NCBI GenBank assembly: GCA_902534325.1
Contig: CACAPQ010000002.1
Coordinates: forward strand, 1-64,000
Length of the DNA stretch: 64,000 bases
DNA from: Paracoccaceae bacterium
Lineage (GTDB): Bacteria > Pseudomonadota > Alphaproteobacteria > Rhodobacterales > Rhodobacteraceae
Direction of reading: 5' to 3'
Shown: positions 2,805 to 58,478 of the stretch, piece by piece
How positions within the stretch are numbered: position 1 is the stretch's first letter
Layout: each line of letters begins with the position of its first letter
Program-made: the position numbers and the translations under genes
The notes under the pieces: model-generated
What the model was told of the DNA's origin: nothing
Databases searched by the model: none
What the model saw: the letters and a program-made list of their open reading frames with translations, nothing else

Positions 2805-2989
2805 TTTATTGTTTTTCACTCGAAACATTTAAATTAAAAAACCAACTGGTCATCCCACCGTTAAAAACTTGCATTGAACTTATTATACTAATTCATATAG
2901 TAGTCACAAGTAGTGAAAAAAAATAGCCATTATTCTGTACTTTGAAAGTTAATCTTTCCAAGCTAACGGTTTTAAGCTTTTAAAAAAAT

Positions 2990-41487: not shown

Positions 41488-41913
41488 TTGGAGTTAAAGC
41501 AAGATCAAATGATTGAAAAAGATCACTGCAAGCTGCGAGTTAGCACCTTCTCCAGATGGGGTAACGATGTTGTGCAAGCTATTGCTTTACTTATCGATAA
41601 AGCGCCAATTCGCACTAAGGAATCAAGTCAAAATGAAGGTGAATTCAGCTCTCCTGTAGCACCCTTTCAAGTGATAAATATAGGCAATGGTAAGGCAGAA
41701 AAATTACTCGATTTTATAAAAGCGATAGAAATAGCTACAGGAATTTCTGCGAATATGAAATTTACCTCTATGCAGGCAGGAGACTTTTTAACCACTTTCT
41801 CTGATTGTTCCCTTCTCGAGAACCTAACAGTCTTTACGCCAAAAACATCAATTTTAGATAGGGTTTTAAGTTTTGTAGATTCGTCTAAAGAAATGGATTG
41901 GTCCGATGGCTAG
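41488..41913 (+). pseudogene. C-terminal remnant of a UDP-glucuronate 4-epimerase-like gene
   Basis: 141 codons matching only the last third of a UDP-sugar epimerase. VVQAIALLIDKAP stands where intact enzymes have the IDDIVEG... region, followed by PFQVINIGNGKAEKLLDFIK, then MQAGDFLTTFSDCSLLENL and FTPKTSILDRVLSFVD. The Rossmann domain and the Ser/Tyr/Lys catalytic site (about 200 residues) are absent, and the 240 bp upstream contain no recognisable remainder. It overlaps the methyltransferase gene start by 8 bp. It cannot be a working epimerase. Confidence 0.75.
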
Positions 41914-42665: not shown

Positions 42666-42791
42666 ATGAAAAAAATTCAAAAAATTTGTTTTTTAGCGCA
42701 AACCCTCCAATTTATGTTAATTAATCGCTATAAAAAAGTAAGCAAACTCCCTTGGGGTGAAAATATATTATTTTTGGAGCGGGAGAGATGA
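42666..42791 (+). CDS. Possible small ORF coupled to the aminotransferase gene
   Basis: A 41-codon frame (MKKIQKICFLAQTLQFMLIN, ending FLERER) fills the gap after the methyltransferase. Its TGA overlaps the ATG of the next gene, an arrangement typical of translational coupling. It has a basic N-terminus and a mildly hydrophobic centre and no recognised family. It may be a leader peptide, a remnant or chance. Confidence 0.3.
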   Translation: MKKIQKICFLAQTLQFMLINRYKKVSKLPWGENILFLERER

Positions 42792-43888
42792 TACCAGTTT
42801 TTGAACCAACTTTAACCGCTGAAGCGCACTCGTACGTGAGCGAGTGTATGAGTACTAATTGGATATCATCACAAGGTGACTTTATTACAAAATTTGAGAC
42901 AAAACTTTCGAAACTTCACGAAGACCGACATTGCGCTGTTACTAGTAGCTGTACAACAGCACTTCATCTAGCTCTGCTCGCTTGTGATATTGGGCCAGGT
43001 GATGAAGTAATTTGTCCTGATTTAACGTTTATTGCGCCAGTTAATATGATTTCACTGACTGGAGCCAAACCAGTTCTTTGTGATGTTGAAACAGATACGT
43101 TTTGTATGTCAGTGGATACTATTCGTCCTAAAATCACTAATCGAACGAAAGCTATAGTGGTCGTGCATGCATTTGGCCACTTAGCGAATATGCCTGAAAT
43201 ATTGGAGTTAGGTAAGAAATATAATCTCCGCGTAATAGAAGATGTTGCGGAAGCGCCAGGTGGTATGATCGACAACAAAATAGCAGGCACCTTCGGTGAT
43301 ATTTCATGTTTTAGTTTTTTTGCAAATAAAATTTTTACATCTGGCGAGGGCGGGGCATGTTTGAGCTCCGATGATAAGATAATTGAAAGCATAAAAATAT
43401 TACGAGATCATGGTATGAGTATGGAAAAACGATATTACCATCCAGTGATCGGATTCAATTACCGGATGACAAACCTACAGGCAGCTATTGGTCTTTCACA
43501 AGTCGAGCAATTTCATGAAATCATACATCGGAGGAAATCAATTGAAGATCTTTATATTAAATTTTTTAAGGACAACGATAAGATAAAATACCGCCATTAC
43601 GCGGATTGGTGTAAAGGTGTATTCTGGCTTGCGACAGTTACTATTCCTGAAATGTCAGATAGAAAACACATCATATCCAAATTAATGGACAAGGGCATTG
43701 AGTGCCGGCAAATGGTTTTTCCAGTTCATGAAGCCCCACCATACCATAAATTGGCCAATGATAGTCTGAAAAACTCTATTTTTATTTCTCATAAAAGTTT
43801 GCATCTTCCATCTTCTTCGAACCTGAACAAAGAGCAAATTCAGTTTATCACCGATAGTGTGGTTACTGCTATAGATGAGCAATGTTAA
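42788..43888 (+). CDS. DegT/DnrJ/EryC1/StrS-family sugar aminotransferase
   Basis: 366-residue PLP enzyme that aminates a nucleotide keto-sugar. Conserved blocks: WISSQGDFITKFE near the N-terminus, SCTTALHLALLACDIGPGDE, VEDVAEAPGG (Asp that holds the PLP ring nitrogen, about residue 158) and SFFANKIFTSGEGGA with the Schiff-base Lys (about 182). GFNYRMTNLQAAIGLSQ follows. It has the ribosome site GCGGGAGAG and starts the long coupled run of sugar genes. It could supply an aminosugar for a nonulosonic acid or an amino-heptose. Confidence 0.92.
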   Translation: MIPVFEPTLTAEAHSYVSECMSTNWISSQGDFITKFETKLSKLHEDRHCAVTSSCTTALHLALLACDIGPGDEVICPDLTFIAPVNMISLTGAKPVLCDVETDTFCMSVDTIRPKITNRTKAIVVVHAFGHLANMPEILELGKKYNLRVIEDVAEAPGGMIDNKIAGTFGDISCFSFFANKIFTSGEGGACLSSDDKIIESIKILRDHGMSMEKRYYHPVIGFNYRMTNLQAAIGLSQVEQFHEIIHRRKSIEDLYIKFFKDNDKIKYRHYADWCKGVFWLATVTIPEMSDRKHIISKLMDKGIECRQMVFPVHEAPPYHKLANDSLKNSIFISHKSLHLPSSSNLNKEQIQFITDSVVTAIDEQC

Positions 43889-43891
43889 ATC

Positions 43892-44602
43892 GTGATTAGT
43901 GTCGCAGCGATATTAGCCGGGGGAAAGGGTGCTCGGTTGCTACCAAGAAGTGGTAAGCTACCGAAGTGTTTGATGGAGTTTGGTGGTAAACCATTCATTT
44001 TACACCAAATTGACTGGTTAATCGATCAAGGCATTGCTAAAGTTTTTGTTTGCACCGGATATAAACACGAGTTGATTGAAAGTTTCCTTTCTGATCAACA
44101 TTATTTGAAAGATTTGGTAACCTGTTCAAGGGAGCCAAATGCATTAGGTACTGCAGGCGCAATAAAATATTTGATAGAAACGAAGCAACTAAATGGGTCA
44201 ATTCTAATCGTAAACGGAGATACGTTTTTTAACTTCAAACTGGACCAGAAGTTGATTATGGACAAATTGAACTCGTATCAAGCATTAATATGGGTGTCAA
44301 AGATTCAAGAAATTGGTCGTTTTGCGCAAATCACAGTTGAAGGTGATAAAGTTACTAAATACAGAGAGAAAGAGGAGTGTGATGGAGAGCATTCAAGTTG
44401 TGGATGCTACGTATTTGACTGTAGGCAAGTTTCCGCTGTAGTGGACCAAATATCTTCTTTAGAGGAAGATTTCTTACCAGGACTGGTACGTAATCAAAAA
44501 CTCGGTTGTATTAAAATAGGTGCAAATGGGTTTTACGATTTTGGTACGGTTGAAAGCTTCGACCAATTACTGGTGTCATCTAATAATTGGATTAGCAAAT
44601 GA
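43892..44602 (+). CDS. hddC: Sugar-phosphate nucleotidyltransferase (HddC-like)
   Basis: 236-residue NTP transferase with signature AILAGGKGARLLPRSGKLPK (about residues 6-25), the metal site VNGDTFF (about 109) and the SCGCYVFD strand. The size and close linkage to an HddA-type kinase fit D-glycero-alpha-D-manno-heptose 1-phosphate guanylyltransferase. Other NDP-sugar substrates are possible. The GTG start lies 3 bp after the aminotransferase gene, and the stop overlaps the kinase ATG (ATGA). GmhA and GmhB, the other two pathway enzymes, are encoded about 11 kb downstream. Confidence 0.82.
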   Translation: MISVAAILAGGKGARLLPRSGKLPKCLMEFGGKPFILHQIDWLIDQGIAKVFVCTGYKHELIESFLSDQHYLKDLVTCSREPNALGTAGAIKYLIETKQLNGSILIVNGDTFFNFKLDQKLIMDKLNSYQALIWVSKIQEIGRFAQITVEGDKVTKYREKEECDGEHSSCGCYVFDCRQVSAVVDQISSLEEDFLPGLVRNQKLGCIKIGANGFYDFGTVESFDQLLVSSNNWISK

Positions 44603-45933
44603 AAAGTACAATTTCAGAAAAGGCTTCTATTAGAGACGCTCTTCAGGAACTTAAGCGCACCGGGCTGGGGATAACATGTATTGTAGATTCTTTCGATGTA
44701 GTAAAGGGCGTAGTATCTGACGGCGACATTAGGCGAGTGCTTTTAGAAAATAATGACCTGGATGTTTCGATAACATCAATTATGAATTCGGATTTCATTT
44801 TTGCTAAAGAGAATGATACGCGACAAGATATGATGAAAAAATTTGATATGAGCGTGAAGGTGCTGCCGATATTGGATCGAAGATCTCACTTGATTACATT
44901 GGCTCAATCATTAGGCCCAATTCCTTTCCAAAAAGCCTCTTACATCCGAGCTCGCGCGCCAGGGCGAATTAGTATAGCTGGTGGTGGAACAGATTTCACT
45001 AATTATTTTATAAATAACGAAGGTTGCGGTTTAGCCGTATCAATCGCCAAGTTCGCGCACGCAACTTTGCGCCCCAGATTAGACCGTGAAGTCAATATTT
45101 ATTCAGGTGATTTCAACGAAACACTTCATTATGACTCTTTCGAAAAAATTGAGTGCGATAAAAAATTGCCTTTAATTACAACTGGCATCAAGCTTCTCAA
45201 ACCTAATTTCGGTTTTGATTTAGAGGTTGGTTCAGACTTTCCGCCTGGATCTGGTCTTGGTGGTTCAGCAAGTATTTTGACTGCAATGGCTGGAGTGTTC
45301 GCCGAGGCCAAGGGTGATAAAATGTCAAAACAGCAAATTGCAGAGTTTGCGTTCCAAGTGGAAAGGCTAGAGTTAGGAATTAGTGGAGGCTGGCAGGATC
45401 AATATGCGACAGTTTATGGCGGGCTCAATTACTTGGAATTTTCATCTTCCCAAAATGAAGTCATGCCAATCCGATTAGAAATTGATGCGATGCGTGAGTT
45501 AGAAGAGCGCTTGGTTTTGTGTTACACCGGTCAACGGCATAGGGGGTGGGAAGTTCAAAATCGTAACATAAAGCAAGGCAATCCTAGGACATTAGAAGTT
45601 CGAAGTGAACTTAAAGAAATTGTGAAAAAAGTTAAAAATGCTTTGCTTAATGGGGATATTGTTAAATTTGCTGAGTTGTTAACCCAAACGTGGCATTTAA
45701 AAAAACTCGAGAACCCAGATACCACAGGACCAGAAATAGATGAAATATTTTCATTAGCTCTAAAGAATGGTGCGTTAGGAGGTAGGCTGCTTGGCACTGG
45801 TGGAGGTGGTTTTTTTATATTTGTTTCTGATATTTGTCGACGTTTTGAACTCATTAATACCCTTGAGAAAGCAGGCCACAAAACTGAAAGCGTAAAGCTT
45901 CACTCTCAAGGGTTAGTAACATGGACGGTATGA
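44599..45933 (+). CDS. hddA: CBS-domain/GHMP kinase fusion (HddA-like heptose kinase)
   Basis: 444-residue fusion. Residues about 1-115 form a CBS pair (SIRDALQELKRTGLGITCIV, VVKGVVSDGDIRRVLLENN, then KVLPILDRR). Residues about 118-444 are a GHMP kinase with the N-terminal RARAPGRISIAGGGTDF, the ATP loop PPGSGLGGSASILTAMAG, and the C-terminal GGRLLGTGGGGFFIF. The kinase part matches D-glycero-alpha-D-manno-heptose-7-phosphate kinases, which normally are about 330-350 residues without CBS. The CBS pair probably senses a nucleotide. ATGA overlaps at both ends couple it to hddC and the neuD-like gene. Confidence 0.85.
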   Translation: MKSTISEKASIRDALQELKRTGLGITCIVDSFDVVKGVVSDGDIRRVLLENNDLDVSITSIMNSDFIFAKENDTRQDMMKKFDMSVKVLPILDRRSHLITLAQSLGPIPFQKASYIRARAPGRISIAGGGTDFTNYFINNEGCGLAVSIAKFAHATLRPRLDREVNIYSGDFNETLHYDSFEKIECDKKLPLITTGIKLLKPNFGFDLEVGSDFPPGSGLGGSASILTAMAGVFAEAKGDKMSKQQIAEFAFQVERLELGISGGWQDQYATVYGGLNYLEFSSSQNEVMPIRLEIDAMRELEERLVLCYTGQRHRGWEVQNRNIKQGNPRTLEVRSELKEIVKKVKNALLNGDIVKFAELLTQTWHLKKLENPDTTGPEIDEIFSLALKNGALGGRLLGTGGGGFFIFVSDICRRFELINTLEKAGHKTESVKLHSQGLVTWTV

Positions 45934-46541
45934 GTAAGTCAGTTATAGTTGTAGGTACTGGCGGATATGCACTTGAATTAATCTCTTTATTGAAAAGTGC
46001 GTGCATTCCAGTAAAAGGATGTATCGGACCAAAGAATAAGTTATCAGAGATTTGGTTGGGTCCTGATAATGAGCTTGGATGTTTCACAGATGACTATTTT
46101 TTTGTCGTTGCAATCGGTGATGTTCAAAAGCGGTCCGAAATATCGAAAAAAATCCTGTCTCTCGGTGGCGAGTTTTTTTCATTTAGACACGAAAATAGTT
46201 TTGTCGCAGAAAATGCTCAAATTGGAGCCGGGTGCGTGATATATCCTGGAGCCATAATCCATTCTAATGCATTACTTGGTGCTGGAGTGTTAGTTAACTC
46301 AGGCGCTACAATTGGGCATGAAACTCAAATTGGAAATTTCAGCAACATTTCACCTGGAGTATCAATCGGAGGAAATTGTACAATAGGTAATTTTGTGCAT
46401 GTGGGTATCGGAAGTACAATCATTGAAAAAGTTTTTGTCTCGGATTTGGTCACTATTGGTGCTGGGGCCGCGGTCATAAGCAATATAGAGCAAACTAATG
46501 CGACTTATATTGGTGTTCCGGCTAACAATTTAAATAGATGA
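45930..46541 (+). CDS. neuD: NeuD-like sugar O/N-acyltransferase
   Basis: About 203 residues. An N-terminal Rossmann-like domain (SVIVVGTGGYALELISLL) is followed by a left-handed beta-helix of hexapeptide repeats (AQIGAGCVIYPGAIIHSNAL, IGNFSNISPGVSIGG, VTIGAGAAVISNIE) ending in TYIGVPANN. The acetyltransferase His lies in ATIGHETQIG. These are traits of the NeuD/PglD group that acetylate nonulosonic acid precursors or amino sugars. The ATG at 45930 overlaps the kinase stop; an in-frame ATG at 45921 is the alternative. Next to a NeuB-like gene, supporting a nonulosonate role. Confidence 0.85.
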   Translation: MSKSVIVVGTGGYALELISLLKSACIPVKGCIGPKNKLSEIWLGPDNELGCFTDDYFFVVAIGDVQKRSEISKKILSLGGEFFSFRHENSFVAENAQIGAGCVIYPGAIIHSNALLGAGVLVNSGATIGHETQIGNFSNISPGVSIGGNCTIGNFVHVGIGSTIIEKVFVSDLVTIGAGAAVISNIEQTNATYIGVPANNLNR

Positions 46542-47389
46542 AAATTTTTGTTTCAACGACTTGGAATGGTATACAATCTAGCGATCTGTACGAGACATTG
46601 CTTCTAATGAATGACTTAGAATGTGATGGTTTTGAACTAGGATCGACACACTTGCCGATAGTTGACCATGGTTTTATTTGTAAATATGCGTACGGGCGAG
46701 AACTTATAACCCATAATTACTTTCCATCAACAACCGATAATCTTATTATTAACTTGGCCTCCTTAGACGAACCAACTCGAAATAAGTCCATCCAATTTTG
46801 TAGGTCAGCAATTAAGTTTGCAAGTGAGATCGGTGCAAGTCACTATACCGTGCATCCTGGATTTTTGAAAACGCCTGTTCTGGCAAAAAGTTCAAGACGA
46901 AATTTTGATTTTAAGTTTCATCCAATTCAGCAAGACTATGAAAAATCGTACCAAGCTATGTTAAAATCAATAACGTATTTGTTAGAATGCTCCTTCGAGT
47001 ATGGTGTGAATTTGTTGATTGAAACTGAAGGATCAGTTACCGCTCCAAACGTATGCTTATTGGAAACGCCTTCTGAGATTAGGCGACTGTTTGAGTATTT
47101 TCCAAGCGGATTAGACCTAAATTTTAATTTGGCGCATTCTCAATTTTCAAGCACGATAAATAAATTTTGTTTATTGGAATTCATTCATGAGTTTTATGAA
47201 AAAATAAGATTTGTTGAAATAAGTGATAATGATGGCTCAGCAGACCAGCACCGACCATTAAATGCTAATAGCTTTGCGCTTCAATATTTAAAAGTGCTTA
47301 AAAACAAAAATCTGATACTCGAATTTAGGAACTCGAAAATCGAAGATATCCAAAATTCAATAACGATAATTAAGAGGAAGCTGCAATGA
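46538..47389 (+). CDS. Sugar phosphate isomerase/epimerase-like TIM-barrel protein
   Basis: 283-residue protein of the xylose isomerase-like/AP endonuclease 2 superfamily. Strand-end metal residues are recognisable: HYTVHPGF, NLLIETEGS, DLNFNLAHSQF and RFVEISDNDGSADQH, the usual His/Glu/Asp set for a divalent ion. ATGA overlaps at both ends link it to the neuD- and neuB-like genes. In this setting it may supply or remodel the sugar used by the NeuB-like synthase, but the reaction is not known. Confidence 0.75.
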   Translation: MKIFVSTTWNGIQSSDLYETLLLMNDLECDGFELGSTHLPIVDHGFICKYAYGRELITHNYFPSTTDNLIINLASLDEPTRNKSIQFCRSAIKFASEIGASHYTVHPGFLKTPVLAKSSRRNFDFKFHPIQQDYEKSYQAMLKSITYLLECSFEYGVNLLIETEGSVTAPNVCLLETPSEIRRLFEYFPSGLDLNFNLAHSQFSSTINKFCLLEFIHEFYEKIRFVEISDNDGSADQHRPLNANSFALQYLKVLKNKNLILEFRNSKIEDIQNSITIIKRKLQ

Positions 47390-48462
47390 AACGAACACGT
47401 GAAATCTTTTTAAGTGATAAATTATCTATATCTGATCAATCTAAATGTTTCTTTATTGCAGAAGCTGGGGTGAACCATAATGGTAATTTAGAAAATGCAA
47501 TCAAATTGATTGATGCGGCTGTCGAAGCTGGCGCAGACGCAGTGAAATTCCAGACTTTTTGCGCAAGTCAGATCGCCACTCAATACGCTCCAAAGTCGAC
47601 CTATCATATAGAGACAACTGGTAATGATGAACATCAATCGTGGCTTGATTTACTAAAATCTCAAGAGTTATCTGTAGAGGAACATGAAGTTTTATTTAAA
47701 TATTCAGCAAAAAAAAATATAATTTTCCTGTCAACTCCATATGATCTCGAAAGTGTCGATTTATTGGAAAATCTAGGGGTTAGTTTGCTTAAGGTAGCCT
47801 CCACGGACCTAAATAACCATCGGCTTTTAAAATATATGGCCAAAACAAGTATTCCAGTAATATTATCTACTGCAATGTCTACAATTGAAGAAGTGTTACA
47901 ATCGCAAAATATTTTACTTAATGCTGGCTGTAGTGAGTTAGCTATTCTGCAATGTACAGGTAGCTATCCTACAATTGATAATGACTTAAATATCGGTGCA
48001 ATGTTACACATAAGGGAAAAAACAAATTGTGTAATTGGTTTTTCTGACCATTCTACTGGTGTTAATGCTGTTTCAATAGCAACCGCAGCCGGTGCAAAAA
48101 TCGTTGAAAAACATTTTACACTAGACCGATCAATGCCGGGCCCAGATCATCGCGCGTCTTTAGAGCCCACAGAGTTGAAAGAATGTATAAACCTTATGCG
48201 TCGGACAGAGACTATGATGGGGCTTGGAGAGAAGATTGTGTTGGATTGCGAAAGTGAAAATAGGAGAAAATTACGAAAGTTCACTGTTGCAGCGAGAGAT
48301 TTTGAAAAGGGGCATGTTTTGCGAGATGAAGATTTGCTGCTGAAACGTACCGGTGGTGAAGGTGTATCAGCCAACGAAGTAGATTCAATAGTTGGGAAAA
48401 CACTTATTAAAGATGTCATCGCTGACCAAGTGGTCGACTTAGATGTAATAGGAGAAAGTTGA
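47386..48462 (+). CDS. neuB: NeuB-family nonulosonic acid synthase
   Basis: 358-residue enzyme condensing phosphoenolpyruvate with a six-carbon amino sugar to form sialic-, legionaminic- or pseudaminic-type acids. NeuB barrel motifs: FFIAEAGVNHNGNLENAIKL, ADAVKFQTF, KVASTDLNNHRLL, LSTAMSTIEEV, VIGFSDHSTG, and VEKHFTLDRSMPGPDHRASL. A C-terminal SAF (antifreeze-like) domain spans about residues 296-358 (FTVAARDFEKGHVLRDEDLL). The specific product cannot be assigned, since no NeuC/LegG-type hydrolysing epimerase is present. It is coupled to its neighbours by an ATGA overlap and zero spacing. Confidence 0.93.
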   Translation: MKRTREIFLSDKLSISDQSKCFFIAEAGVNHNGNLENAIKLIDAAVEAGADAVKFQTFCASQIATQYAPKSTYHIETTGNDEHQSWLDLLKSQELSVEEHEVLFKYSAKKNIIFLSTPYDLESVDLLENLGVSLLKVASTDLNNHRLLKYMAKTSIPVILSTAMSTIEEVLQSQNILLNAGCSELAILQCTGSYPTIDNDLNIGAMLHIREKTNCVIGFSDHSTGVNAVSIATAAGAKIVEKHFTLDRSMPGPDHRASLEPTELKECINLMRRTETMMGLGEKIVLDCESENRRKLRKFTVAARDFEKGHVLRDEDLLLKRTGGEGVSANEVDSIVGKTLIKDVIADQVVDLDVIGES

Positions 48463-49395
48463 GTGAATATACTAGTTACAGGCGGTGCGGGATATATTGG
48501 ATCAATACTGGTTCCGAAGCTTCTACAGCTGGGCTATAAAGTAACGGTCATTGATAATTTTCTTTTTGACCAAAATAGTTTAGCTGATGCTTGTTATTAT
48601 AATAATTTTACGGTGATCAAAGCGGATGTGCGAAATATTCAGGTTATTTTGGAGTATCTGAAAAATGCAGATTTAATAATCCCGTTGGCAGCTCTAGTTG
48701 GGGCTCCAATCTGCTCGCAAGATCCGGTTGGCGCTAGTACTATTAATAGAGGCGCTATCATAGACTTACTATCAGTTACGTCTGCTGATCAAAAATTAAT
48801 AATGCCCACAACAAATAGTGCTTATGGTTCTGGAAATGAAAATAATTATTGTGATGAAAATTCTGAACTCTTTCCAATTTCCCAGTATGCAATAGAAAAA
48901 GTCGAGGTGGAGCGCGCAATTATGTCGCGATCAAATTCGATTAGTTTGAGGCTTGCAACTGTGTTTGGAATGTCACCGAGAATGCGAACTGACCTGTTAG
49001 TAAATGATTTCGTATATAAGGCGTTAAATGATAGATCTTTGGTGTTGTTTGAAAAGCAATTTAAGCGCAATTTTATTCATGTTAGAGATGTAGCAAAAGC
49101 GTTAATTCACGCTATTGAAAATTTTGATTTAATGAGTGGTGAGATTTATAACGTGGGGCTTTCATCAGCTAATATTTCCAAACAAGAGCTGGCTGAGGCG
49201 ATAAAAAAATATATTCCAGAGTTACAAATTTTTGACGCTGAATTTGCAAAGGACCCTGATCAAAGAAATTATATTGTCTCAAATGCTAAGATTGAGGCCA
49301 CGGGTTTTAAAACTTCATTCACGCTTGATGATGGGATACAAGAACTGATTAAAGGCTATAAAATGATCAGTAACAATAAGTATACTAATATATAG
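48463..49395 (+). CDS. NAD-dependent sugar epimerase/dehydratase
   Basis: 310-residue extended SDR acting on a nucleotide sugar. The cofactor motif is ILVTGGAGYIGSILVPKLLQ (residues 3-22). The catalytic set is the Thr/Ser in TTNSAYGSG and Tyr-x-x-x-Lys as YAIEK (about 142-146), and KRNFIHVRDVAKA is the usual substrate-domain motif. The reaction (epimerisation, dehydration or reduction) is open. The GTG start follows the neuB stop without a gap. Confidence 0.88.
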   Translation: MNILVTGGAGYIGSILVPKLLQLGYKVTVIDNFLFDQNSLADACYYNNFTVIKADVRNIQVILEYLKNADLIIPLAALVGAPICSQDPVGASTINRGAIIDLLSVTSADQKLIMPTTNSAYGSGNENNYCDENSELFPISQYAIEKVEVERAIMSRSNSISLRLATVFGMSPRMRTDLLVNDFVYKALNDRSLVLFEKQFKRNFIHVRDVAKALIHAIENFDLMSGEIYNVGLSSANISKQELAEAIKKYIPELQIFDAEFAKDPDQRNYIVSNAKIEATGFKTSFTLDDGIQELIKGYKMISNNKYTNI

Positions 49396-49404
49396 GATAT
49401 TTTC

Positions 49405-51204
49405 ATGATAACTTTGGGGTTGCATGATGGACATGGCGCAAGCGTTGCTCTCTTTGAAAATGATAAACTTTTAGCGGTAATAGAGGAAGAAAGGCCAAGC
49501 CGACGAAAAGGCTACACTGGATTTCCTGTTCTTAGTATTGGAAGGCTGTACGACGAATTTCCTAAGCAAATGCGCCAAATTGATCAGGTTGCTGTTGGAA
49601 CGGTTTTTCATGATTTTTCACTTTTTGCGACCAAGAGGTATCCTGAATTTTCGATAAGTGATTTTTTATATGAAGAAAGGAACTTCTGGCGGCCGTTTTT
49701 ATGTGAAGATAAGAAATTGAATTACATGGATGTAATGCAGCATAAAGTGAACTTGGATAATGAGATCTATCCTTTAAAGGATATCATTTCTAATCCAACT
49801 ACGCAAAATGTTATGCAAATGCGGAAGCACTTCGTCTCAAAATTTTTGGACATTCCAGAAACCAACGTATTTTTTGTTGATCACCACAAGTGTCATGCCA
49901 ATCATGCCTTATTCGGGTCTCAAATTAAAGACGACTGTTTGGTAATTACAATGGACGGGTTTGGCGACGGAACGAATGCTACTGTGGGTGTTTTTAAAGG
50001 TGAACGAATAGAAGAATTGTACCGTACTGATCTCTGCAACATAGGGCGCATTTATCAGTTTATCACTCTGTTACTTGGAATGAAACCTGCAGAACATGAA
50101 TATAAAGTAATGGGCTTAGCAGCTTATGCAAAAGATCAATATATTCGCGAGCCTCTTGAAGTTTTCAGAAATACCTATGGATTGGTGAATGGTCAGTTTC
50201 GCGTGTTAACGGAAATAAAAAACCACTATCAATATTTTAAGAAAAGACTCGAAGGGTATCGTTTTGATGCTATTGCGGGTGCACTTCAAGCATGGGTAGA
50301 AGAAATCCTAGTAGAATTTGTGACTTATTGGATCAAGCAAACTTCAATTCGCAAAGTCGTATTTAGTGGTGGTGTCGCCCTAAATATTAAAGCGTCCAAA
50401 AAAATAGCGGAGATTCCTGATGTCGAATTCATATTTGTTCCTGTGGGTTCAGGTGATGAATCAATCTCTATCGGCGCGGGTTACGAATTATTGCAACAGA
50501 ATTTTATGGCTTCGCAAATTGCAGGTATTTCCAGTCCTTATCTTGGTCCAAAGTTAAGCTCCGAGGCTTGCGAAGAAGTAAGAAATAATGACTTCTTAAA
50601 AAAGAATTTTCAGAGATTTCCCGACGTCACAGTGGAAACTTTGGCGGAGATACTGGCGAATGGGAATGTACTTGCGAACATGGTTGGCGCAATGGAATTT
50701 GGGCCACGCGCGCTGGGAAATAGATCGTTTTTAGCGGATCCGCGTAAGCCAAATATTGTCGAAAAAATTAATGATGCGGTTAAGAATCGAGATTTTTGGA
50801 TGCCGTTTACGCCTAGCATATTAGAAAAATCTGCGGATAGGTATATTCTTAATCCTAAAAGATTACCAGCTCCGTATATGACGATGGCATTTGATACGAC
50901 ACCAGAAGCACAACTTGAAATACCTGCTGCAATACACCCTGTGGATAAAACTGCAAGGCCTCAAATAGTGACGAAGGAAGCAAACACCGATTATTACCTT
51001 TTATTAGAAGCTTTTGAAGCAATTACAGGCGTAGGCTGTTTACTCAACACTTCCTTGAATATCCATGGTAAACCCATTGTTTTCAACCCAATCGACATAG
51101 TAAATGAAATTTTAATGAATCAATTGGTTAAATTAAACTTCATCAGGATAGGCTCCGACCTCTACGTCTCTAAAAGTGTCGAATTTAAAGGATACAAAAA
51201 ATGA
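49405..51204 (+). CDS. NodU/TobZ-family carbamoyltransferase
   Basis: 599-residue enzyme transferring a carbamoyl group to a sugar hydroxyl, using carbamoyl phosphate and ATP. N-terminal YrdC-like/Kae1-like part: LGLHDGHGASVALFE, FFVDHHKCHANHALFGS with the Fe-binding His residues, and MDGFGDGTNATVG. The C-terminal domain contains ANMVGAMEFGPRALGNRSFL and the tail LNTSLNIHGKPIV. It is of normal length. In a surface-glycan cluster it would decorate a monosaccharide. Its stop overlaps the aminotransferase ATG (ATGA). Confidence 0.93.
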   Translation: MITLGLHDGHGASVALFENDKLLAVIEEERPSRRKGYTGFPVLSIGRLYDEFPKQMRQIDQVAVGTVFHDFSLFATKRYPEFSISDFLYEERNFWRPFLCEDKKLNYMDVMQHKVNLDNEIYPLKDIISNPTTQNVMQMRKHFVSKFLDIPETNVFFVDHHKCHANHALFGSQIKDDCLVITMDGFGDGTNATVGVFKGERIEELYRTDLCNIGRIYQFITLLLGMKPAEHEYKVMGLAAYAKDQYIREPLEVFRNTYGLVNGQFRVLTEIKNHYQYFKKRLEGYRFDAIAGALQAWVEEILVEFVTYWIKQTSIRKVVFSGGVALNIKASKKIAEIPDVEFIFVPVGSGDESISIGAGYELLQQNFMASQIAGISSPYLGPKLSSEACEEVRNNDFLKKNFQRFPDVTVETLAEILANGNVLANMVGAMEFGPRALGNRSFLADPRKPNIVEKINDAVKNRDFWMPFTPSILEKSADRYILNPKRLPAPYMTMAFDTTPEAQLEIPAAIHPVDKTARPQIVTKEANTDYYLLLEAFEAITGVGCLLNTSLNIHGKPIVFNPIDIVNEILMNQLVKLNFIRIGSDLYVSKSVEFKGYKK

Positions 51205-52538
51205 TTTCCACAAGGTTTCGTCATATTTGTACAGAGATCCCAAATGAGCGCGATAAAGATATAATTGAAACAATTACCCTTCTTGAGTCGAAACAAGCAA
51301 ATAAAGAATTGCCAGTTGTTTGGGATCGGGCTGATGGTTTTCAAGTATTTGATAGATGGGGAAATTGTTGGATTGATATGACCTCATCAATCTTTGTAGC
51401 TAATACGGGACATAATTCAGAAAACAATCGAAAACACGTACAATCGACATTAGAAAAAGGATTAATGCATGCATACTGCTATCCAACTGTAGAAAGAGCG
51501 GAGTTTCTTAAAAAGTTATTGAGCATGACCCCTAGTTATCTTGAAAAAGCTTCTTTAGCTTCGGCCGGGACAGAAGCTAGTGAAAGAGCATTGAAATTAG
51601 CGAGATTATACAACGCTCAAACTACCCCAGAAAAAAACGTGATTATTGGTGGATCAGGAAATTACCATGGTAAAACCATGGGTGCATTGATGTCTGCAAC
51701 AACGCCTGAAGTACGAAATTGGGTTGGCTATCAAGATCCTAACATGCTACAAATGCCATTTCCTTATCCTTGGATAATGGAGTCTATAAATCTATCCGGA
51801 TCACAATTATTCTTTAACCATATCGAAGAGCTTGAGCAAGATGGTTTAGATTTAAAAAAAATCTGTGCTTTTATCATTGAGCCATATCAAGGTTGGGGAG
51901 CAGTATTCTATCCAGAAGATTACATACGGTCTATGTTTAATTGGTGTCGAGAAAATGATGTATTGTTTATCGCTGATGAGATACAATCTGGTTTCGGTCG
52001 AACCGGCGAGCTCTTTGCTTATCAGCACTATAAGGTTGAACCAGATTTAGTAGTGTGCGGTAAAGGTATTTCCGGTGGTATGCCACTTTCAGCAGTTTTA
52101 GGAGCTTCTAATATAATTGAACTCGATTCAAGTTTAACCAGCACACATGGTGGTCATCCGATAGCATGCGCTGGTGCGCTAGGAAATTTGATTGATTACG
52201 AACGATATAATTTGACACATGAATCAAATAAAAAAGGAACATATTTAAAAAAACGTTTGGATGCACTTAAAAGTAAATTTCCAACACTTATCAGCCGTAT
52301 AGAAGGCCGCGGTATGGTATGGGGTATTTATTTCAAAGATGCGAAAGGTAATTTAGACGTCACTTTTGTAGATAATATGGTAGATAAATTGCTTCAAAAA
52401 GGCATCTTCTCAATTCGAACCGGCCGTGGCGTAATAAAACTAGGACCTCCTTTGATTACTCCAATAGATGCATTGAATGAAGCAATTACGGTTCATGAGG
52501 AGGTTATAGAAGAGTTGTTGTATGAAAGAAATATATAA
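51201..52538 (+). CDS. Class III aminotransferase
   Basis: 445-residue PLP enzyme. Motifs: GTEASERALKLARLYNA, NYHGKTMGALM (His and Gly of the PLP pocket), FIADEIQSGFGRTGELFA (Asp that pairs with the ring nitrogen, about residue 257), and VCGKGISGGMPLSAVLG with the Schiff-base Lys (about 286). Class III enzymes usually act on omega-amino or glutamate-semialdehyde-like substrates. Inside a glycan cluster it may make an amino acid or amine substituent. A truncated SDR remnant follows. Confidence 0.9.
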   Translation: MISTRFRHICTEIPNERDKDIIETITLLESKQANKELPVVWDRADGFQVFDRWGNCWIDMTSSIFVANTGHNSENNRKHVQSTLEKGLMHAYCYPTVERAEFLKKLLSMTPSYLEKASLASAGTEASERALKLARLYNAQTTPEKNVIIGGSGNYHGKTMGALMSATTPEVRNWVGYQDPNMLQMPFPYPWIMESINLSGSQLFFNHIEELEQDGLDLKKICAFIIEPYQGWGAVFYPEDYIRSMFNWCRENDVLFIADEIQSGFGRTGELFAYQHYKVEPDLVVCGKGISGGMPLSAVLGASNIIELDSSLTSTHGGHPIACAGALGNLIDYERYNLTHESNKKGTYLKKRLDALKSKFPTLISRIEGRGMVWGIYFKDAKGNLDVTFVDNMVDKLLQKGIFSIRTGRGVIKLGPPLITPIDALNEAITVHEEVIEELLYERNI

Positions 52539-52564
52539 CCAACTGCGCAACTAAAGGAAACTGA

Positions 52565-52762
52565 GTTAACTCGTCGTCGCCCGCAGGTGTCTATCGTGAA
52601 CAAGATTCTCAATTTGTTAATGAGTTAGTCTCTAGAATCCGAATGAATAGGATGGCGCTACCACACGAATTAAAAGGGCCAATTTTGTTCTTGGCGTTAG
52701 AAACTTGTTCTTATATGACTGGACCAGATATTTATGTAGATGGAGGACTAACAATTTGGTAA
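52565..52762 (+). pseudogene. C-terminal remnant of an SDR oxidoreductase
   Basis: Sixty-five codons after an in-frame stop read VNSSSPAGVYREQ, then MALPHELKGPILFLAL and SYMTGPDIYVDGGLTIW. These are the last quarter of a classical short-chain dehydrogenase, starting at the segment after the catalytic Tyr-Lys. The cofactor and catalytic parts are gone. The VOC gene reuses the end of this fragment, including its GGAGG as ribosome-binding site, and its TTG overlaps the remnant's stop. Confidence 0.75.
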
Positions 52763-53187
52763 CTGAATGGCGCCATGTTGGTATAGCGGTTAGTGACTTA
52801 GATCGCTACATCAGAATTTTCACTGAATATCTTGGAATAAAAAGCTATAAAGAATTCAATGACTTAAATTATGCATATCTCAATCGTTTGGTAGGCAGTC
52901 ATAGCAACAAGATACGTATATGTGTTTTCGATCTTCCAGGAGGTGCTAAAATTGAGTTACTTCAGTATGATATCAAAAAAAAGGCTGAGACTACACCGTT
53001 CTTTATTGGATCAGCACACATCGCATTGACTGTGAACGATCTTGAAGATTTATATTCCAGAAGGGATATATACGATGTGAACTTTGTAAATGCCCCAATG
53101 TATAATCCGGAAAGATCTGTTAAGCTATCTTTCGCTAACATAGGAAATGAGCTAAATCTCGAACTTGTGGAGTTGTTACCTGACTGA
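52756..53187 (+). CDS. VOC/glyoxalase-fold protein
   Basis: About 143 residues from a TTG at 52756, chosen because GGAGG lies 9 bp upstream and the fold begins right there (WRHVGIAVSDLDRYIRIFTE). Two beta-alpha-beta-beta-beta units are visible: the first ends in GGAKIELLQYD, the second starts SAHIALTVNDLEDLYSR and ends NELNLELVELL. Metal-site positions are His in RHVGIAV, Glu in KIELLQ, His in AHIALTV and Glu in LNLELVE. It resembles methylmalonyl-CoA epimerase-like members, and its role in the glycan cluster is unknown. Overlaps neuA. Confidence 0.75.
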   Translation: MVTEWRHVGIAVSDLDRYIRIFTEYLGIKSYKEFNDLNYAYLNRLVGSHSNKIRICVFDLPGGAKIELLQYDIKKKAETTPFFIGSAHIALTVNDLEDLYSRRDIYDVNFVNAPMYNPERSVKLSFANIGNELNLELVELLPD

Positions 53188-53896
53188 GCGAATAAATATT
53201 GGCTTGATATTTTGCCGTGGTGGCTCAAAAGGTATACCTGGTAAAAATATAAAAAATTTTCATGGTCGACCATTGCTGGAGTGGATAGTAGAGGCTGCTA
53301 AAAACTCAAAATTATTTGATTCAATTTATTTATCGACAGATGATCCTAATATTGCAGCGCTAGGTAGGGAAATAGGATTAGAAGTTCCTTTTTTAAGACC
53401 AGCCTCGTTAGCTACTGATACTAGCGATCAATTTAAATCTCATGATCATATCATAAAAAAACTAAAATTAAATGACTTTGAGCATCGGATCTGCGTGATC
53501 AACAATAATCCTTTTATTGGTCAACAGATGTTCAAAGCCTCCTTTCGGGAATTCATGGCTAATGATGAAACACGAATCGTTGTTGACGCCATAAGAATAA
53601 ATTCAGATGAACTTTATTACAGGCAAATGGTAAGGAATAATTCGATATTAGAAATAAAATTTACAGATGACTACATGAGTTCAAATATAAATCGTCAAGC
53701 AGATAAAGATCACTATGCTCCAATAAATAATATACGATGGGGTTTACCTTCTTGGATGCAATCTTACACCGCATATAAGAAAAAGGTAAGTGAAGTGGGC
53801 CATGGATTTATCATACTTCCTAAAATTCGAAATTTTGACTTAGATGATATGTATGATTGGACTATTGCCGAAAAAGTATTTTTCTTAAATGATTAG
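53165..53896 (+). CDS. neuA: NeuA-like acylneuraminate cytidylyltransferase
   Basis: About 243 residues, activating a nonulosonic acid with CTP. The nucleotide-binding motif FCRGGSKGIPGKNIKNFHGR lies near residue 17, FDSIYLSTDDPNIAALG follows, and CVINNNPFIG stands where canonical enzymes read LQPTSP-like. The start is awkward: TTG at 53165 is the only standard start, overlapping the VOC gene by 23 bp, and a CTG at 53180 is also possible. It pairs functionally with the NeuB-like synthase at 47 kb. It overlaps the following glycosyltransferase gene by 8 bp. Confidence 0.87.
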   Translation: MWSCYLTERINIGLIFCRGGSKGIPGKNIKNFHGRPLLEWIVEAAKNSKLFDSIYLSTDDPNIAALGREIGLEVPFLRPASLATDTSDQFKSHDHIIKKLKLNDFEHRICVINNNPFIGQQMFKASFREFMANDETRIVVDAIRINSDELYYRQMVRNNSILEIKFTDDYMSSNINRQADKDHYAPINNIRWGLPSWMQSYTAYKKKVSEVGHGFIILPKIRNFDLDDMYDWTIAEKVFFLND

Positions 53897-54941
53897 ATCA
53901 CTTGTTTACATAGCGGTGTCTTTTGAAGATGTGAGAACTGCAAGCGTAATCCAAACAAAAAACATGATTACAGCCTTTAAGCAAAATAATATAAGTGTAT
54001 TCCCATATTGGAAATACCGTTTCCGGCAGGAAAAAATTTTAAGTTATTTTTTAAATTGGTTTCTAGAAACAAAAATTTTTCACTATTTATATTTAATTAT
54101 TTTACCAATTTTTGTATCTATCAAATATCGAAAAACGCCTGAAAATATATTTTATACAAGAAGTATATTGGTTGGCTATATTATAAATATCATAGTCAAT
54201 AAACCTATTCTCATTGAACTACATACAGCGCCACATTGGAAATTAGAAATACTTTTATTAAGAAACTTAAAAAAAAATACCAAACTAATTTACTTGACAG
54301 ATGCTGTTCGTGAGAAATTTGAATCCTTAAACATTGGGCTGAAATACCAAGTGGCACCTGATGCACATGACTTCCAAATATTAAGTCTGAATGACAGAGC
54401 TGCGAAAATACTAAATAAAAATGCAAGCATTAAAATTGGTTATTTTGGCAAATATAGCGAACAAAAAGGTTCTAACATTCTTAGGGAGATAGTTAAACTC
54501 AATCCTACTTGGGAGTTTTATATTCATACTTTAAACGATAATGATCTGAAAGCCGAAAATATAAAAGAGAATCGCTATCTGAGCAGAGAAGAAGTGAAAT
54601 TAAAAATGATTCAGATGGATTTTTTGCTTTTGTTCGTCGTACCAACCTTTGAAAAAAATGACATATCGAATTATACTTCACCGTTAAAACTTTTTGAGTA
54701 TGCGTCGTCTGGTGGTTTTATAATTGCGTCTGATGTTCCTGTACTCAGAGAGTTGGAAGGTTTTAATGGTATATGCTTTTCAGAGAACAACCCAAAAGCT
54801 TTTGGAGACGCAATTAAAAAGATTATCAACGATGTTCGCCTGCAAACAAATTTACAGAAAGGTGCATTGGGCCTGGCCTTGGCGAATACTTGGTCAACAC
54901 GTGCGAAAAATATAGTAATTTTTGCAAGTGAGACGACTTGA
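53889..54941 (+). CDS. Glycosyltransferase (GT4/GT-B type)
   Basis: 350-residue GT-B fold protein. The C-terminal domain has the donor-side motifs IGYFGKYSEQKGSNILREI (about residue 177) and NYTSPLKLFEYASSGGFIIA, the family 4 E-x7-E type region (about 255-275). The N-terminal domain contains a hydrophobic, Tyr-rich segment (about 50-75) that may associate with the membrane. It probably transfers the activated nonulosonate or another sugar in the repeat unit. It overlaps neuA by 8 bp. Confidence 0.82.
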   Translation: MIRSLVYIAVSFEDVRTASVIQTKNMITAFKQNNISVFPYWKYRFRQEKILSYFLNWFLETKIFHYLYLIILPIFVSIKYRKTPENIFYTRSILVGYIINIIVNKPILIELHTAPHWKLEILLLRNLKKNTKLIYLTDAVREKFESLNIGLKYQVAPDAHDFQILSLNDRAAKILNKNASIKIGYFGKYSEQKGSNILREIVKLNPTWEFYIHTLNDNDLKAENIKENRYLSREEVKLKMIQMDFLLLFVVPTFEKNDISNYTSPLKLFEYASSGGFIIASDVPVLRELEGFNGICFSENNPKAFGDAIKKIINDVRLQTNLQKGALGLALANTWSTRAKNIVIFASETT

Positions 54942-54971
54942 TAGTTTTTTTGGGTAGATCTGACACTATAG

Positions 54972-55257
54972 CGCCATATAATTAGTCAATTGACGCTGCC
55001 AAGTGCAGAGGTTTTTGGCGAGAGTGCTATCCCCGGAAATCAAGCATTGGTTGAAGATGAAAAAATCGGTATCTTATTTGAAAAAGCGATTAGTGTTTCT
55101 TTTAGCTAGCAAAATTGGCGAAGTTGTGTCTGATATTGAACGGTTTAATGAACTCAAAATAAATGCAAAAATCAATTTGGTCTCGAAACACAATTCGGTT
55201 AATCACTCAGATAACTTAAAGGTTTTATACAAGGGAGTATACGGTGAAAAACTTTAA
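54972..55257 (+). pseudogene. Frameshifted remnant of a glycosyltransferase 3' end
   Basis: The 302-bp gap before gmhA has no intact gene. One frame reads SAEVFGESAIPGNQALVEDE then KIGILFEKAI, resembling the 'P-x-I-V-x-D/E-G-x-x-G-x-L' segment of GT4 enzymes, until a TAG at 55107. Another frame, open to 55257, continues with SDIERFNELKINAK and HSDNLKVLYKGV, resembling a GT4 C-terminal helix. A frameshift near 55090-55110 would join them. Its last codons overlap the gmhA start. The open part could also be a small ORF starting at 55003. Confidence 0.5.
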
Positions 55258-55813
55258 AGAATATTGCTTTAGGCAGACAGAAATCGTTGCCCTCTCTAAA
55301 TCATTAAACTTAGTTATCGAGGAAGCGGTTGATCAGATTGCATCTCGCATGAAACTTGGCGGCAAATTATTATTTTGTGGAAACGGTGGCTCTGCTGCAG
55401 AGGCTCAACATCTTGCTGCAGAATTGATGGGGAGATTTAATTACGACCGTTCACCCCTGCCTTCTTTAGCGCTTACTGTCGACACATCTGCGCTTACGGC
55501 AATTTCAAATGATTACGGTTATGAGCACGTATTTTCACGTCAACTAAATGGAATTGCGAGCGCAAACGATGCTTTAGTATCTCTTTCTGCTTCCGGCAAC
55601 AGTACTAGTATAATAAATGCAATTGGAGCGGCAAAAGAACAAAATATCCTGACCGTAACTCTTCTCGGGGGCGACGGAGGAGAGGCGAGAGGTTTGTCTG
55701 ATATTGATATTATAATAGAAAGTACCGAAACATACTTTATACAAGAGTTACACTTAATGATTGGCCATTACATTTGTTATCAGCTAGAAAAAAAACTTTG
55801 TGATCGTCTATGA
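55244..55813 (+). CDS. gmhA: Phosphoheptose isomerase
   Basis: 189-residue SIS-domain enzyme converting sedoheptulose-7-phosphate to D-glycero-D-manno-heptose-7-phosphate. Diagnostic motifs: LLFCGNGGSAAEAQHLAAEL (about residues 42-61), SPLPSLALTVDTSALTAISN, SASGNSTSIINAI, and the C-terminal ELHLMIGHYIC with the catalytic His. Length is normal. The GTG start has GGGAG 7 bp upstream. The stop overlaps gmhB by ATGA. It is the first step of the heptose pathway completed by gmhB, hddA and hddC. Confidence 0.95.
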   Translation: MKNFKEYCFRQTEIVALSKSLNLVIEEAVDQIASRMKLGGKLLFCGNGGSAAEAQHLAAELMGRFNYDRSPLPSLALTVDTSALTAISNDYGYEHVFSRQLNGIASANDALVSLSASGNSTSIINAIGAAKEQNILTVTLLGGDGGEARGLSDIDIIIESTETYFIQELHLMIGHYICYQLEKKLCDRL

Positions 55814-56328
55814 AAAGTTTCCAAAAATCTATTATTTTCGATCGTGATAATACATTGATTAAGGATTATGGATATACCCATAAAATAGAGCATTTACGAT
55901 GGATGCCAGGTTCGCTGTCGATGCTACGTAGACTAAATAATAAAAAGTTTGGGTTATTCATTGCAACTAATCAAGGTGGAATCGCTTTAGGTAAATTTTC
56001 TGAAAGTGAAATGTTAATATTTCATTATGAGATGAGTAACCAAGCACTCCAGTTTAAGATTAAATTTATCGATATAATGTACTGTAAACATCATCAAAAA
56101 TCTAAAGATCATAAAAAAAGATATTGCTATTGCAGAAAGCCCAAGCCCGGTATGCTAATGAAAATTATTAGACAGCATAAATTGAACCCATCACAGTGTA
56201 TTTATGTTGGAGATAAATGGACAGACTATTTGTGCGCGCGTAATGCTGGAATAAAGTTTCTTTCAGCGCCTAAATGCTATGGACAAAAATTTTATCATGA
56301 TCTTGAACTGAAATTGGCATCAAAGTAA
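55810..56328 (+). CDS. gmhB: D-glycero-D-manno-heptose-1,7-bisphosphate 7-phosphatase
   Basis: 172-residue HAD-IIIA phosphatase. The nucleophile motif FDRDNTLIKDYGYT (residues 10-23) and FIATNQGGIALGKF (motif II) are present. The Cys/His zinc loop is CKHHQKSKDHKKRYCYCRKP, and motif III/IV is YVGDKWTDYLCARNAG. The zinc loop and size are specific to GmhB/histidinol-phosphatase-like members. It is coupled to gmhA by ATGA, and the next gene's ATG overlaps its stop codon by one base. Confidence 0.92.
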   Translation: MKSFQKSIIFDRDNTLIKDYGYTHKIEHLRWMPGSLSMLRRLNNKKFGLFIATNQGGIALGKFSESEMLIFHYEMSNQALQFKIKFIDIMYCKHHQKSKDHKKRYCYCRKPKPGMLMKIIRQHKLNPSQCIYVGDKWTDYLCARNAGIKFLSAPKCYGQKFYHDLELKLASK

Positions 56329-58423: not shown

Positions 58424-58478
58424 AGAGAAGTTTTTTGCTGATACACATAGTAAAACTTATAAGACTTTTTGATTTAAA
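58424..58478 (+). repeat. 55-bp direct repeat, copy 2 (intact ABC gene start)
   Basis: Functional copy of the repeat at 57551-57605, offset by 873 bp. It carries AGAGAAG and the TTG start of the ABC transporter and continues into an open reading frame, so this copy is the ancestral one in coding terms. Confidence 0.9.

Follow-up and report, generated by a model that had tools for sequence, protein, structure and literature searches.

What sugar feeds a NeuB-family synthase whose gene cluster has none of the enzymes that usually prepare its substrate? The question is raised by a 64,000-nt stretch of DNA (the window) from a Paracoccaceae bacterium (assembly GCA_902534325.1, contig CACAPQ010000002.1, positions 1-64,000), the genome assembly of which amounts to 2.09 Mb in 74 contigs and is 77.8% complete. 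A preliminary description of positions 45930-53896 reported neuD-, neuB- and neuA-like genes with neither a NeuC/LegG/PseG-type hydrolase nor a PseB/LegB-type dehydratase, and proposed that NeuB acts on an unusual substrate to give a carbamoylated or longer-chain ulosonic acid. Family searches confirm that the genes of this stretch include no enzyme of either type, and the triosephosphate isomerase (TIM)-barrel, “epimerase”, carbamoyltransferase, class III aminotransferase and VOC genes interleaved there were found where described. The catalogued sialic-acid-like sugars are nine-carbon acids; we lean, by no great measure, toward the view that this cluster makes a ten-carbon ulosonic acid, activated with cytidine monophosphate (CMP), from guanosine diphosphate (GDP)-manno-heptose.

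The gene unit extends past the described stretch at both ends (Table 1): a DegT aminotransferase gene and an HddC-like gene lie upstream (42788-44602), and GmhA- and GmhB-like genes lie downstream (55244-56328), 1.3 kb beyond the NeuA-like gene. The HddC-like gene and an HddA-like kinase gene with a fused CBS domain stand directly upstream of NeuD. The genes for HddC, CBS-HddA, NeuD, TIM barrel, NeuB, “epimerase”, carbamoyltransferase and class III aminotransferase form a single run, each overlapping its neighbor or separated from it by no more than 9 bp, in which heptose and nonulosonic acid (NulO) genes alternate. The unusual substrate and the longer chain thus find support in genes that the description did not recognize, namely a Cj1427-type C4-dehydrogenase, a perosamine-synthase-like aminotransferase and the GmhA/GmhB-like pair. 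A carbamoylated product may be supposed from the carbamoyltransferase gene, which is the one piece of evidence that bears on it.

The “epimerase” is a Cj1427-type GDP-heptose C4-dehydrogenase, by predicted activity. Its best PDB relatives are 6vo6 and 6vo8 (361 bits; runner-up, 76.5 bits), and it is 54% identical to Cj1427 over 305 residues. Both entries are titled as Cj1427, and the title of 6vo8 also names GDP-D-glycero-D-mannoheptose; the predicted structure of the window enzyme is poor (predicted local distance difference test score (pLDDT) 57.1), and its structure search served only to read these titles. Cj1427 is a C4-dehydrogenase that oxidizes GDP-manno-heptose with alpha-ketoglutarate. 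The window enzyme is not PseB (18.7 bits; cutoff 407.75), and LegB was not found in the cluster, where the “epimerase” reaches 70.1 bits, short of the TIGR04180 cutoff of 475 (LegB was not searched in the rest of the genome). Assignment as a 4,6-dehydratase was rejected, the dehydratase position having no Glu by our own reading (TTNSAYG). As a separate observation, Cj1427-type genes occur in six viral contigs (L073-L078, 50-51% identity), with GDP-fucose-synthase-like genes close by.

The kinase scores 214.7 bits against HddA (NF049969, cutoff 600; next family, 89.5 bits) and is the sole HddA match in the window genome. The DegT protein has perosamine synthase (3bn1/3dr7, 287 bits) as its best PDB match, 3bn1 being the Caulobacter enzyme. 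By score it is not LegC (321.2 bits against a cutoff of 420, which the LegC of reference cluster L066 passes with 506.6 bits). Lys versus His at the conserved motif separates DegT aminotransferases from pyridoxal phosphate-dependent 3-dehydrases; the window protein retains the aminotransferase Lys motif (SFFANKIFTSGEGG), and assignment as a 3-dehydrase was set aside for this reason.

Together these genes suggest a pathway whose reactions, order, NeuB substrate and TIM-barrel step we infer as follows. GmhA-, HddA-, GmhB- and HddC-like enzymes would supply GDP-manno-heptose as the starting sugar, the Cj1427-type enzyme would oxidize it to the 4-keto form, the DegT enzyme would aminate C4 and NeuD would acylate the amine. 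The candidate for releasing the free 4-acylamino-heptose is the TIM barrel. NeuB would then condense this sugar with phosphoenolpyruvate to 7-acylamino-3,7-dideoxy-dec-2-ulosonic acid, which the NeuA-like enzyme would activate with CMP, and the carbamoyltransferase and class III aminotransferase may carry out tailoring. A hydrolyzing 2-epimerase of the NeuC/LegG type would not be needed, because C2 of the precursor already has the manno configuration.

The TIM barrel belongs to a rare family. Counting the window genome each time, it was found in one of 292 genomes of the order, two of 385 of the class and one of 398 of the phylum; further relatives are one on an Azospirillum plasmid, eight clear loci among 11 returned from a collection of 84,980 genomes, and six from draws of 197, 296 and 136 genomes. 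The counts below cover 16 members (the window, L006, L013-L020 and L060-L065), with L012 and L019, which are one locus, entered once. Weak loci L021-L023 (among the 11), weak genome matches of up to 51 bits and plasmid hits H23 and H24 stand outside these counts; at L021-L023 no neuB hit was found. The family was not found in phages; among viral contigs, one search returned none and another a single weak locus (L086).

Linkage and conservation within the family are direct observations. In all 16 members the TIM-barrel gene has neuB no more than 5 kb away and a DegT gene no more than 3 kb away; the Lys motif is present in 14 of the 16 DegT proteins, with no match in L014 and L015. Every locus encodes an N-acyltransferase, be it NeuD-like, a GNAT or a formyltransferase (L019 read through L012), and the fetched locus includes a NeuA-like gene in 15 of 16, the exception being L018, for which 9 kb was fetched. 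A PF02350 hydrolase passes its cutoff in only four of the 16 genomes or records, which we count as support; in L016 this gene is 9 kb from the TIM-barrel gene.

The TIM-barrel model (pLDDT 84.5) gives Z scores of 23-27 among the matches listed. The nearest structures are MJ1311 (uncharacterized), isomerases or epimerases, and endonuclease IV, relatives that the VIA-align comparison cannot tell apart as isomerases or endonuclease IV. MJ1311 (3wqo) is the closest PDB relative among the matches listed (Z 27.3, 2.1 Å, 247 residues; profile E 1.1e-20). We regard the TIM barrel as the candidate for sugar release because, of the enzyme genes matched between the window and a second heptose-type locus (L062, below), it is the only one left without a step, and release is the only step left without an enzyme. 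The combined proposal, that the product is a ten-carbon relative of sialic acid and that the TIM barrel founds a new family releasing sugars from nucleoside diphosphates, is put forward with more doubt than confidence.

The metal ligands of D-tagatose 3-epimerase-like proteins are Glu, Asp, His and Glu. This is the set at the predicted ligand positions of 14 members, and in the window and L062 proteins these positions read Glu, Asn, Glu and Glu; N197 and E227 occur only in these two, the other 14 and MJ1311 carrying D and H. Decay of the window gene was considered and rejected, since L062 shares both substitutions and both proteins keep E162, H200 and E262.

The same two loci are the only ones of 16 with an HddA-like gene alongside the TIM-barrel gene, so that the Asn/Glu subtype goes with the heptose genes. 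L062, which comes from a sample of the order to which a Pelagibacteraceae genome belongs, is a distant Pelagibacterales locus encoding GmhA, GmhB, HddC fused to a formyltransferase, NeuB, TIM barrel, CBS-GHMP kinase, a Cj1427-type enzyme and DegT, in an order different from that of the window. Its proteins are 42% (NeuB), 33% (TIM barrel), 51% (Cj1427-type) and 45% (DegT) identical to those of the window, and its Cj1427-type enzyme is 50% identical to Cj1427. Through its fusion to a formyltransferase, the HddC-like domain is connected with N-acylation. In phylogenetic trees the window and L062 pair in each case (TIM-barrel clade 97/92, DegT 100/100, NeuB 87/96), which is suggestive, without amounting to statistical proof, of a whole module that switched once, anciently, to a heptose substrate. 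Elsewhere in L062, the protein at 2843-4294 has a cytidylyltransferase C-terminal half and an N-terminal half that by eye resembles a degenerate NeuB barrel, with no Pfam match there.

The window NeuB has both the NeuB and SAF domains (PF03102, PF08666) of the synthase family and falls short of the NeuB_NnaB (TIGR03569, 361.9 bits; cutoff 399.65) and PseI (TIGR03586, 254.8 bits; cutoff 340.25) cutoffs. It keeps K53, H236 and D247, which we take to be active-site positions. Of the 13 pocket residues of Neisseria meningitidis NeuB listed in an excerpt of PMC6795526, it keeps nine (E25, Q55, T110, K129, Y186, S213, H215, E234 and R314). The preliminary description had held that PseB/PseG or LegB/LegG genes elsewhere in the genome, together with a NeuB of a known clade, would speak against its proposal. 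In a tree with 15 TIM-linked NeuBs (that of L061, which is mostly N, was left out), the window sequence falls with none of the PseI, LegI or NeuC-linked references included, and pairs with L062. PseB and PseG are indeed present on the same contig, in a pseudaminic locus at 69000-76842, outside the window and starting 15 kb past the end of the described stretch. PseB (529.6 bits), PseG (301.7), PseI (484.6) and PseC (527.2) are all above curated cutoffs, and the genome's second NeuB-family gene is at contig position 75811. That this locus, through PseB, PseC and PseG, also feeds the window NeuB as a second Pse-type synthase is an idea to which we give very little credence: the locus owns its PseI, and the window protein neither reaches the PseI cutoff nor groups with PseI.

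The pseudaminic locus has, in addition, a weak formyltransferase match at the place expected for PseH, and its cytidylyltransferase found no confirmation by family search. A 678-residue protein there matches glutamate-1-semialdehyde aminotransferase models in its C-terminal part and looks, by eye, like an SpsF-type cytidylyltransferase in its N-terminal part; a Vibrio Pse cluster with an SpsF-like bifunctional protein is described in an excerpt of PMC7371886.

What weighs against a ten-carbon product is, in part, the occurrence of similar heptose genes away from neuB. Plasmid records served as a check on the specificity of the Cj1427-type enzyme, and the outcome favors its link to heptose. Among 21 records matching it at E≤1e-30, seven have at least 52% identity (the next has 38%), and all seven carry, no more than 8 kb away, a gene of HddA-like kinase or HddC/GmhB type (identified by NCBIfam, and by blastp with the window genes as reference; as in the window, the scores stay below NCBIfam equivalog cutoffs); this count covers the seven and not the 14 records at 38% or less. 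On the other side, no neuB hit was found in the 17 kb of these seven loci. Sinorhizobium locus L087 combines Cj1427-type, kinase and HddC-GmhB genes with a DegT gene of this type, and blastp finds no neuB across its 35 kb, so GDP-4-amino-heptose may arise without NeuB. The window might then encode two separate sugars, with GDP-4-amino-heptose used directly and NeuB making a nine-carbon NulO from a hexose supplied elsewhere. Several pathways often share surface-sugar regions, and this contig carries the pseudaminic locus as well. We consider this, the foremost competitor, to be unlikely. Positions 42788-56328 offer two such pathways one DegT aminotransferase and one NeuD between them, heptose and NulO genes are interleaved in one run, and the TIM-barrel gene, which has its DegT partner at every locus, changes subtype with the HddA-like genes. 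Nor was a PF02350 hydrolase found in the 77.8%-complete genome (the ManNAc-forming epimerases AGE and NanE were not searched, which counts on the other side).

One of the seven plasmid loci, Solidesulfovibrio L084, encodes an L-2-hydroxyglutarate oxidase (327.7 bits, cutoff 299), consistent with 2-hydroxyglutarate as the by-product of Cj1427-type oxidation. In L004, the flavin-dependent (FAD) oxidase at 334-1392 (contig 80334-81392) is closest to the same family at 209.5 bits, below that cutoff, and could recycle this by-product.

Other points that bear on a ten-carbon product concern the nature of the starting sugar. In L014 and L015, more distant relatives of Cj1427 (34 and 37%) lie near TIM-barrel, DegT and NeuB genes, in genomes without an HddA match, so the Cj1427 family is not linked to heptose throughout. 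The window nucleotidyltransferase scores slightly better with the mannose-1-phosphate guanylyltransferase model (89.1 bits, cutoff 440) than with HddC (79.8 bits, cutoff 300). Locus L063 has the gene order NeuB, GNAT-TIM fusion, DegT, GDP-mannose 4,6-dehydratase and NeuA, which suggests a GDP-mannose-derived pathway, a six-carbon version of the window logic, where a 2-epimerase would not be needed because C2 is already manno; we count this gene order in favor of the proposed scheme as well. GDP-mannose dehydratase matches of at least 394 bits occur in 10 of the 16 TIM-barrel genomes or records (nine over the cutoff), including that of L062 at 527.8 bits; this co-occurrence is weak support for a GDP-mannose-derived pathway, because the gene is common for other reasons. 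The window cluster could alternatively make a nine-carbon 7-acylamino Kdn-like acid from GDP-mannose oxidized by its Cj1427-type enzyme. We rate this as distinctly improbable, given that Cj1427 itself is far more similar to the enzymes of the window (54%) and L062 (50%), that both loci add GmhA/GmhB-like genes to the HddA-like kinase, and that GDP-mannose dehydratase finds no strong match in the window genome, the best reaching 61.4 bits.

The ten-carbon reading has further weak places. The HddA-, HddC-, GmhA- and GmhB-like genes, with all four types present, each fall below the NCBIfam equivalog cutoff, and marker genes do not split heptose from other TIM-barrel loci in a perfectly clean manner. 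Three other TIM-barrel genomes or records have an HddA match elsewhere: G1013 on a different contig (403 bits), the L006 plasmid at a distance of about 200 kb (130 bits), and G1346 with a weak score. The GmhA-like proteins of L062 and L084 match a SIS-domain gene that lies 12 kb from the TIM-barrel gene of L006, and L016, L060 and L063 give HddC-like hits of 48-68 bits. The agreement between the window and L062 counts as one event, because the two loci share ancestry; their NeuB pairing is moderately supported, and the NeuB tree backbone is unresolved. Four of the 13 excerpted NeuB pocket residues (PMC6795526) are changed (N74D, F112Y, N184G and F288K). Positions 74, 184 and 288 vary in NeuC-linked and LegI references too, and Tyr for Phe112, which is absent from LegI, NeuC-linked and PseI references, occurs in 10 of the 15 TIM-linked NeuBs, including those of the window and L062, and in two of three deep-branching second NeuBs of TIM-barrel loci. 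Finally, we know of no precedent for sugar release in the TIM-barrel fold, and since that fold is common to epimerases, isomerases and endonuclease IV, the window protein might epimerize instead.

Table 1. Genes of the unit in the window, with profile matches and predicted roles.
Gene product	Position	Strand	Matches and predicted role
DegT aminotransferase, perosamine-synthase-like	42788..43888	+	PF01041 356 bits; predicted 4-amination of GDP-4-keto-heptose
HddC-like sugar-1-phosphate nucleotidyltransferase	43892..44602	+	PF00483
CBS domain fused to HddA-like GHMP heptose-phosphate kinase	44599..45933	+	PF00571 + PF00288 + PF08544
NeuD-type sugar N-acyltransferase	45921..46541	+	TIGR03570 165.6 bits, above cutoff 160.8
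TIM barrel (AP_endonuc_2), neuB-linked family	46538..47389	+	PF01261 66 bits; candidate sugar-releasing step
NeuB-family phosphoenolpyruvate-condensing synthase + SAF	47386..48462	+	PF03102 275 bits, PF08666 25.8 bits
Cj1427-type GDP-heptose C4-dehydrogenase (NAD “epimerase” of the preliminary description; extended short-chain dehydrogenase/reductase)	48463..49395	+	6vo6/6vo8 361 bits
NodU-type O-carbamoyltransferase	49405..51204	+	PF16861 180 bits, PF02543 95 bits; putative tailoring
Class III aminotransferase	51201..52538	+	PF00202 277 bits
VOC/glyoxalase-fold protein	52705..53187	+	PF13669 33.6 bits
NeuA/PseF-like cytidylyltransferase	53165..53896	+	PF02348 76.6 bits; PseF TIGR03584 121.6 bits, cutoff 205.7
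Glycosyltransferase group 1	53889..54941	+	PF13692 29.6 bits
GmhA-like sedoheptulose-7-phosphate isomerase	55244..55813	+	TIGR00441 180.5 bits, cutoff 209.45
GmhB-like heptose bisphosphate phosphatase	55810..56328	+	NF006506 119.2 bits, cutoff 178; HAD-IIIA TIGR01662 94 bits, above cutoff 44.6

A relative of the carbamoyltransferase, 40% identical, is found near the TIM-barrel and NeuB genes of L014. Just upstream of the unit, the open reading frame at 41488-41913 resembles, by eye, a remnant of a sugar-nucleotide epimerase, with no NCBIfam match at E 1e-6. Downstream are an ABC transporter frame (58435-60120, PF00005), which has look-alikes by eye in L013 (6695-8482) and L062 (4862-6562), and a surface carbohydrate biosynthesis protein (60637-62022; TIGR04396 265.9 bits, cutoff 125). 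Farther off, at 18465-20621, is a 718-residue flagellin-like protein with a large central insert (PF00669, 34.8 bits).

If the proposed pathway is correct, a NeuB route fed by GDP-heptose would add one carbon to the backbone and join two pathways that have been treated apart. The TIM-barrel family would mark a GDP-manno-sugar route to ulosonic acids that uses no NeuC, LegG or PseG, with a six-carbon branch derived from GDP-mannose and a seven-carbon branch derived from GDP-heptose, and genome scans keyed to those three enzymes would overlook this supply of NeuB. The family could serve as a marker gene with which to trace such a pathway through alphaproteobacteria and Bacteroidota. The predicted product has a searchable mass: the N-acetyl form would be C12H21NO10 (339.1165 Da), with a DMB adduct [M+H]+ at 456.161, or 499.167 if it bears one carbamoyl group, and an N-formyl form would lie 14.016 lower. 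In the literature searched, which left subscription journals mostly outside, we found no paper for decanulosonic or deculosonic terms, and nothing on point, judging by listed records and abstract openings, for TIM-barrel, GDP-mannose or heptose routes to NulOs, for 4-amino-heptose or for ten-carbon ulosonic acids.

Among known systems, the alphaproteobacterial legionaminic clusters (L066, L068 and L069), which encode LegB, LegC, NeuC/LegG, NeuB/LegI, an acetyltransferase, a nucleotidyltransferase and NeuA, follow a similar scheme, their annotated genes covering an activated sugar, a 4-keto intermediate, 4-amination, N-acylation, NeuB and NeuA. The window differs in having neither the dehydratase nor the hydrolyzing 2-epimerase, and in having the TIM barrel, the heptose genes and the Cj1427-type dehydrogenase. 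For the TIM barrel, the fold relative is MJ1311, of the D-tagatose 3-epimerase-like/endonuclease IV superfamily, which does not have the HNYFP motif and has D and H where the window protein has N and E. For DegT, the closest solved relative is the Caulobacter GDP-perosamine synthase (3bn1), with the same type of Lys motif; it acts on 4-keto-6-deoxy-mannose, whereas the window enzyme is predicted to act on the 4-keto-heptose. The Campylobacter jejuni capsular heptose pathway has the same five enzyme types as the window (GmhA, HddA, GmhB, HddC and Cj1427), and according to an excerpt of PMC10680097 these five enzymes lead to GDP-4-keto-manno-heptose. In C. jejuni the keto sugar is then epimerized and reduced, whereas the prediction for the window is that an aminotransferase, NeuD and NeuB take over from there.

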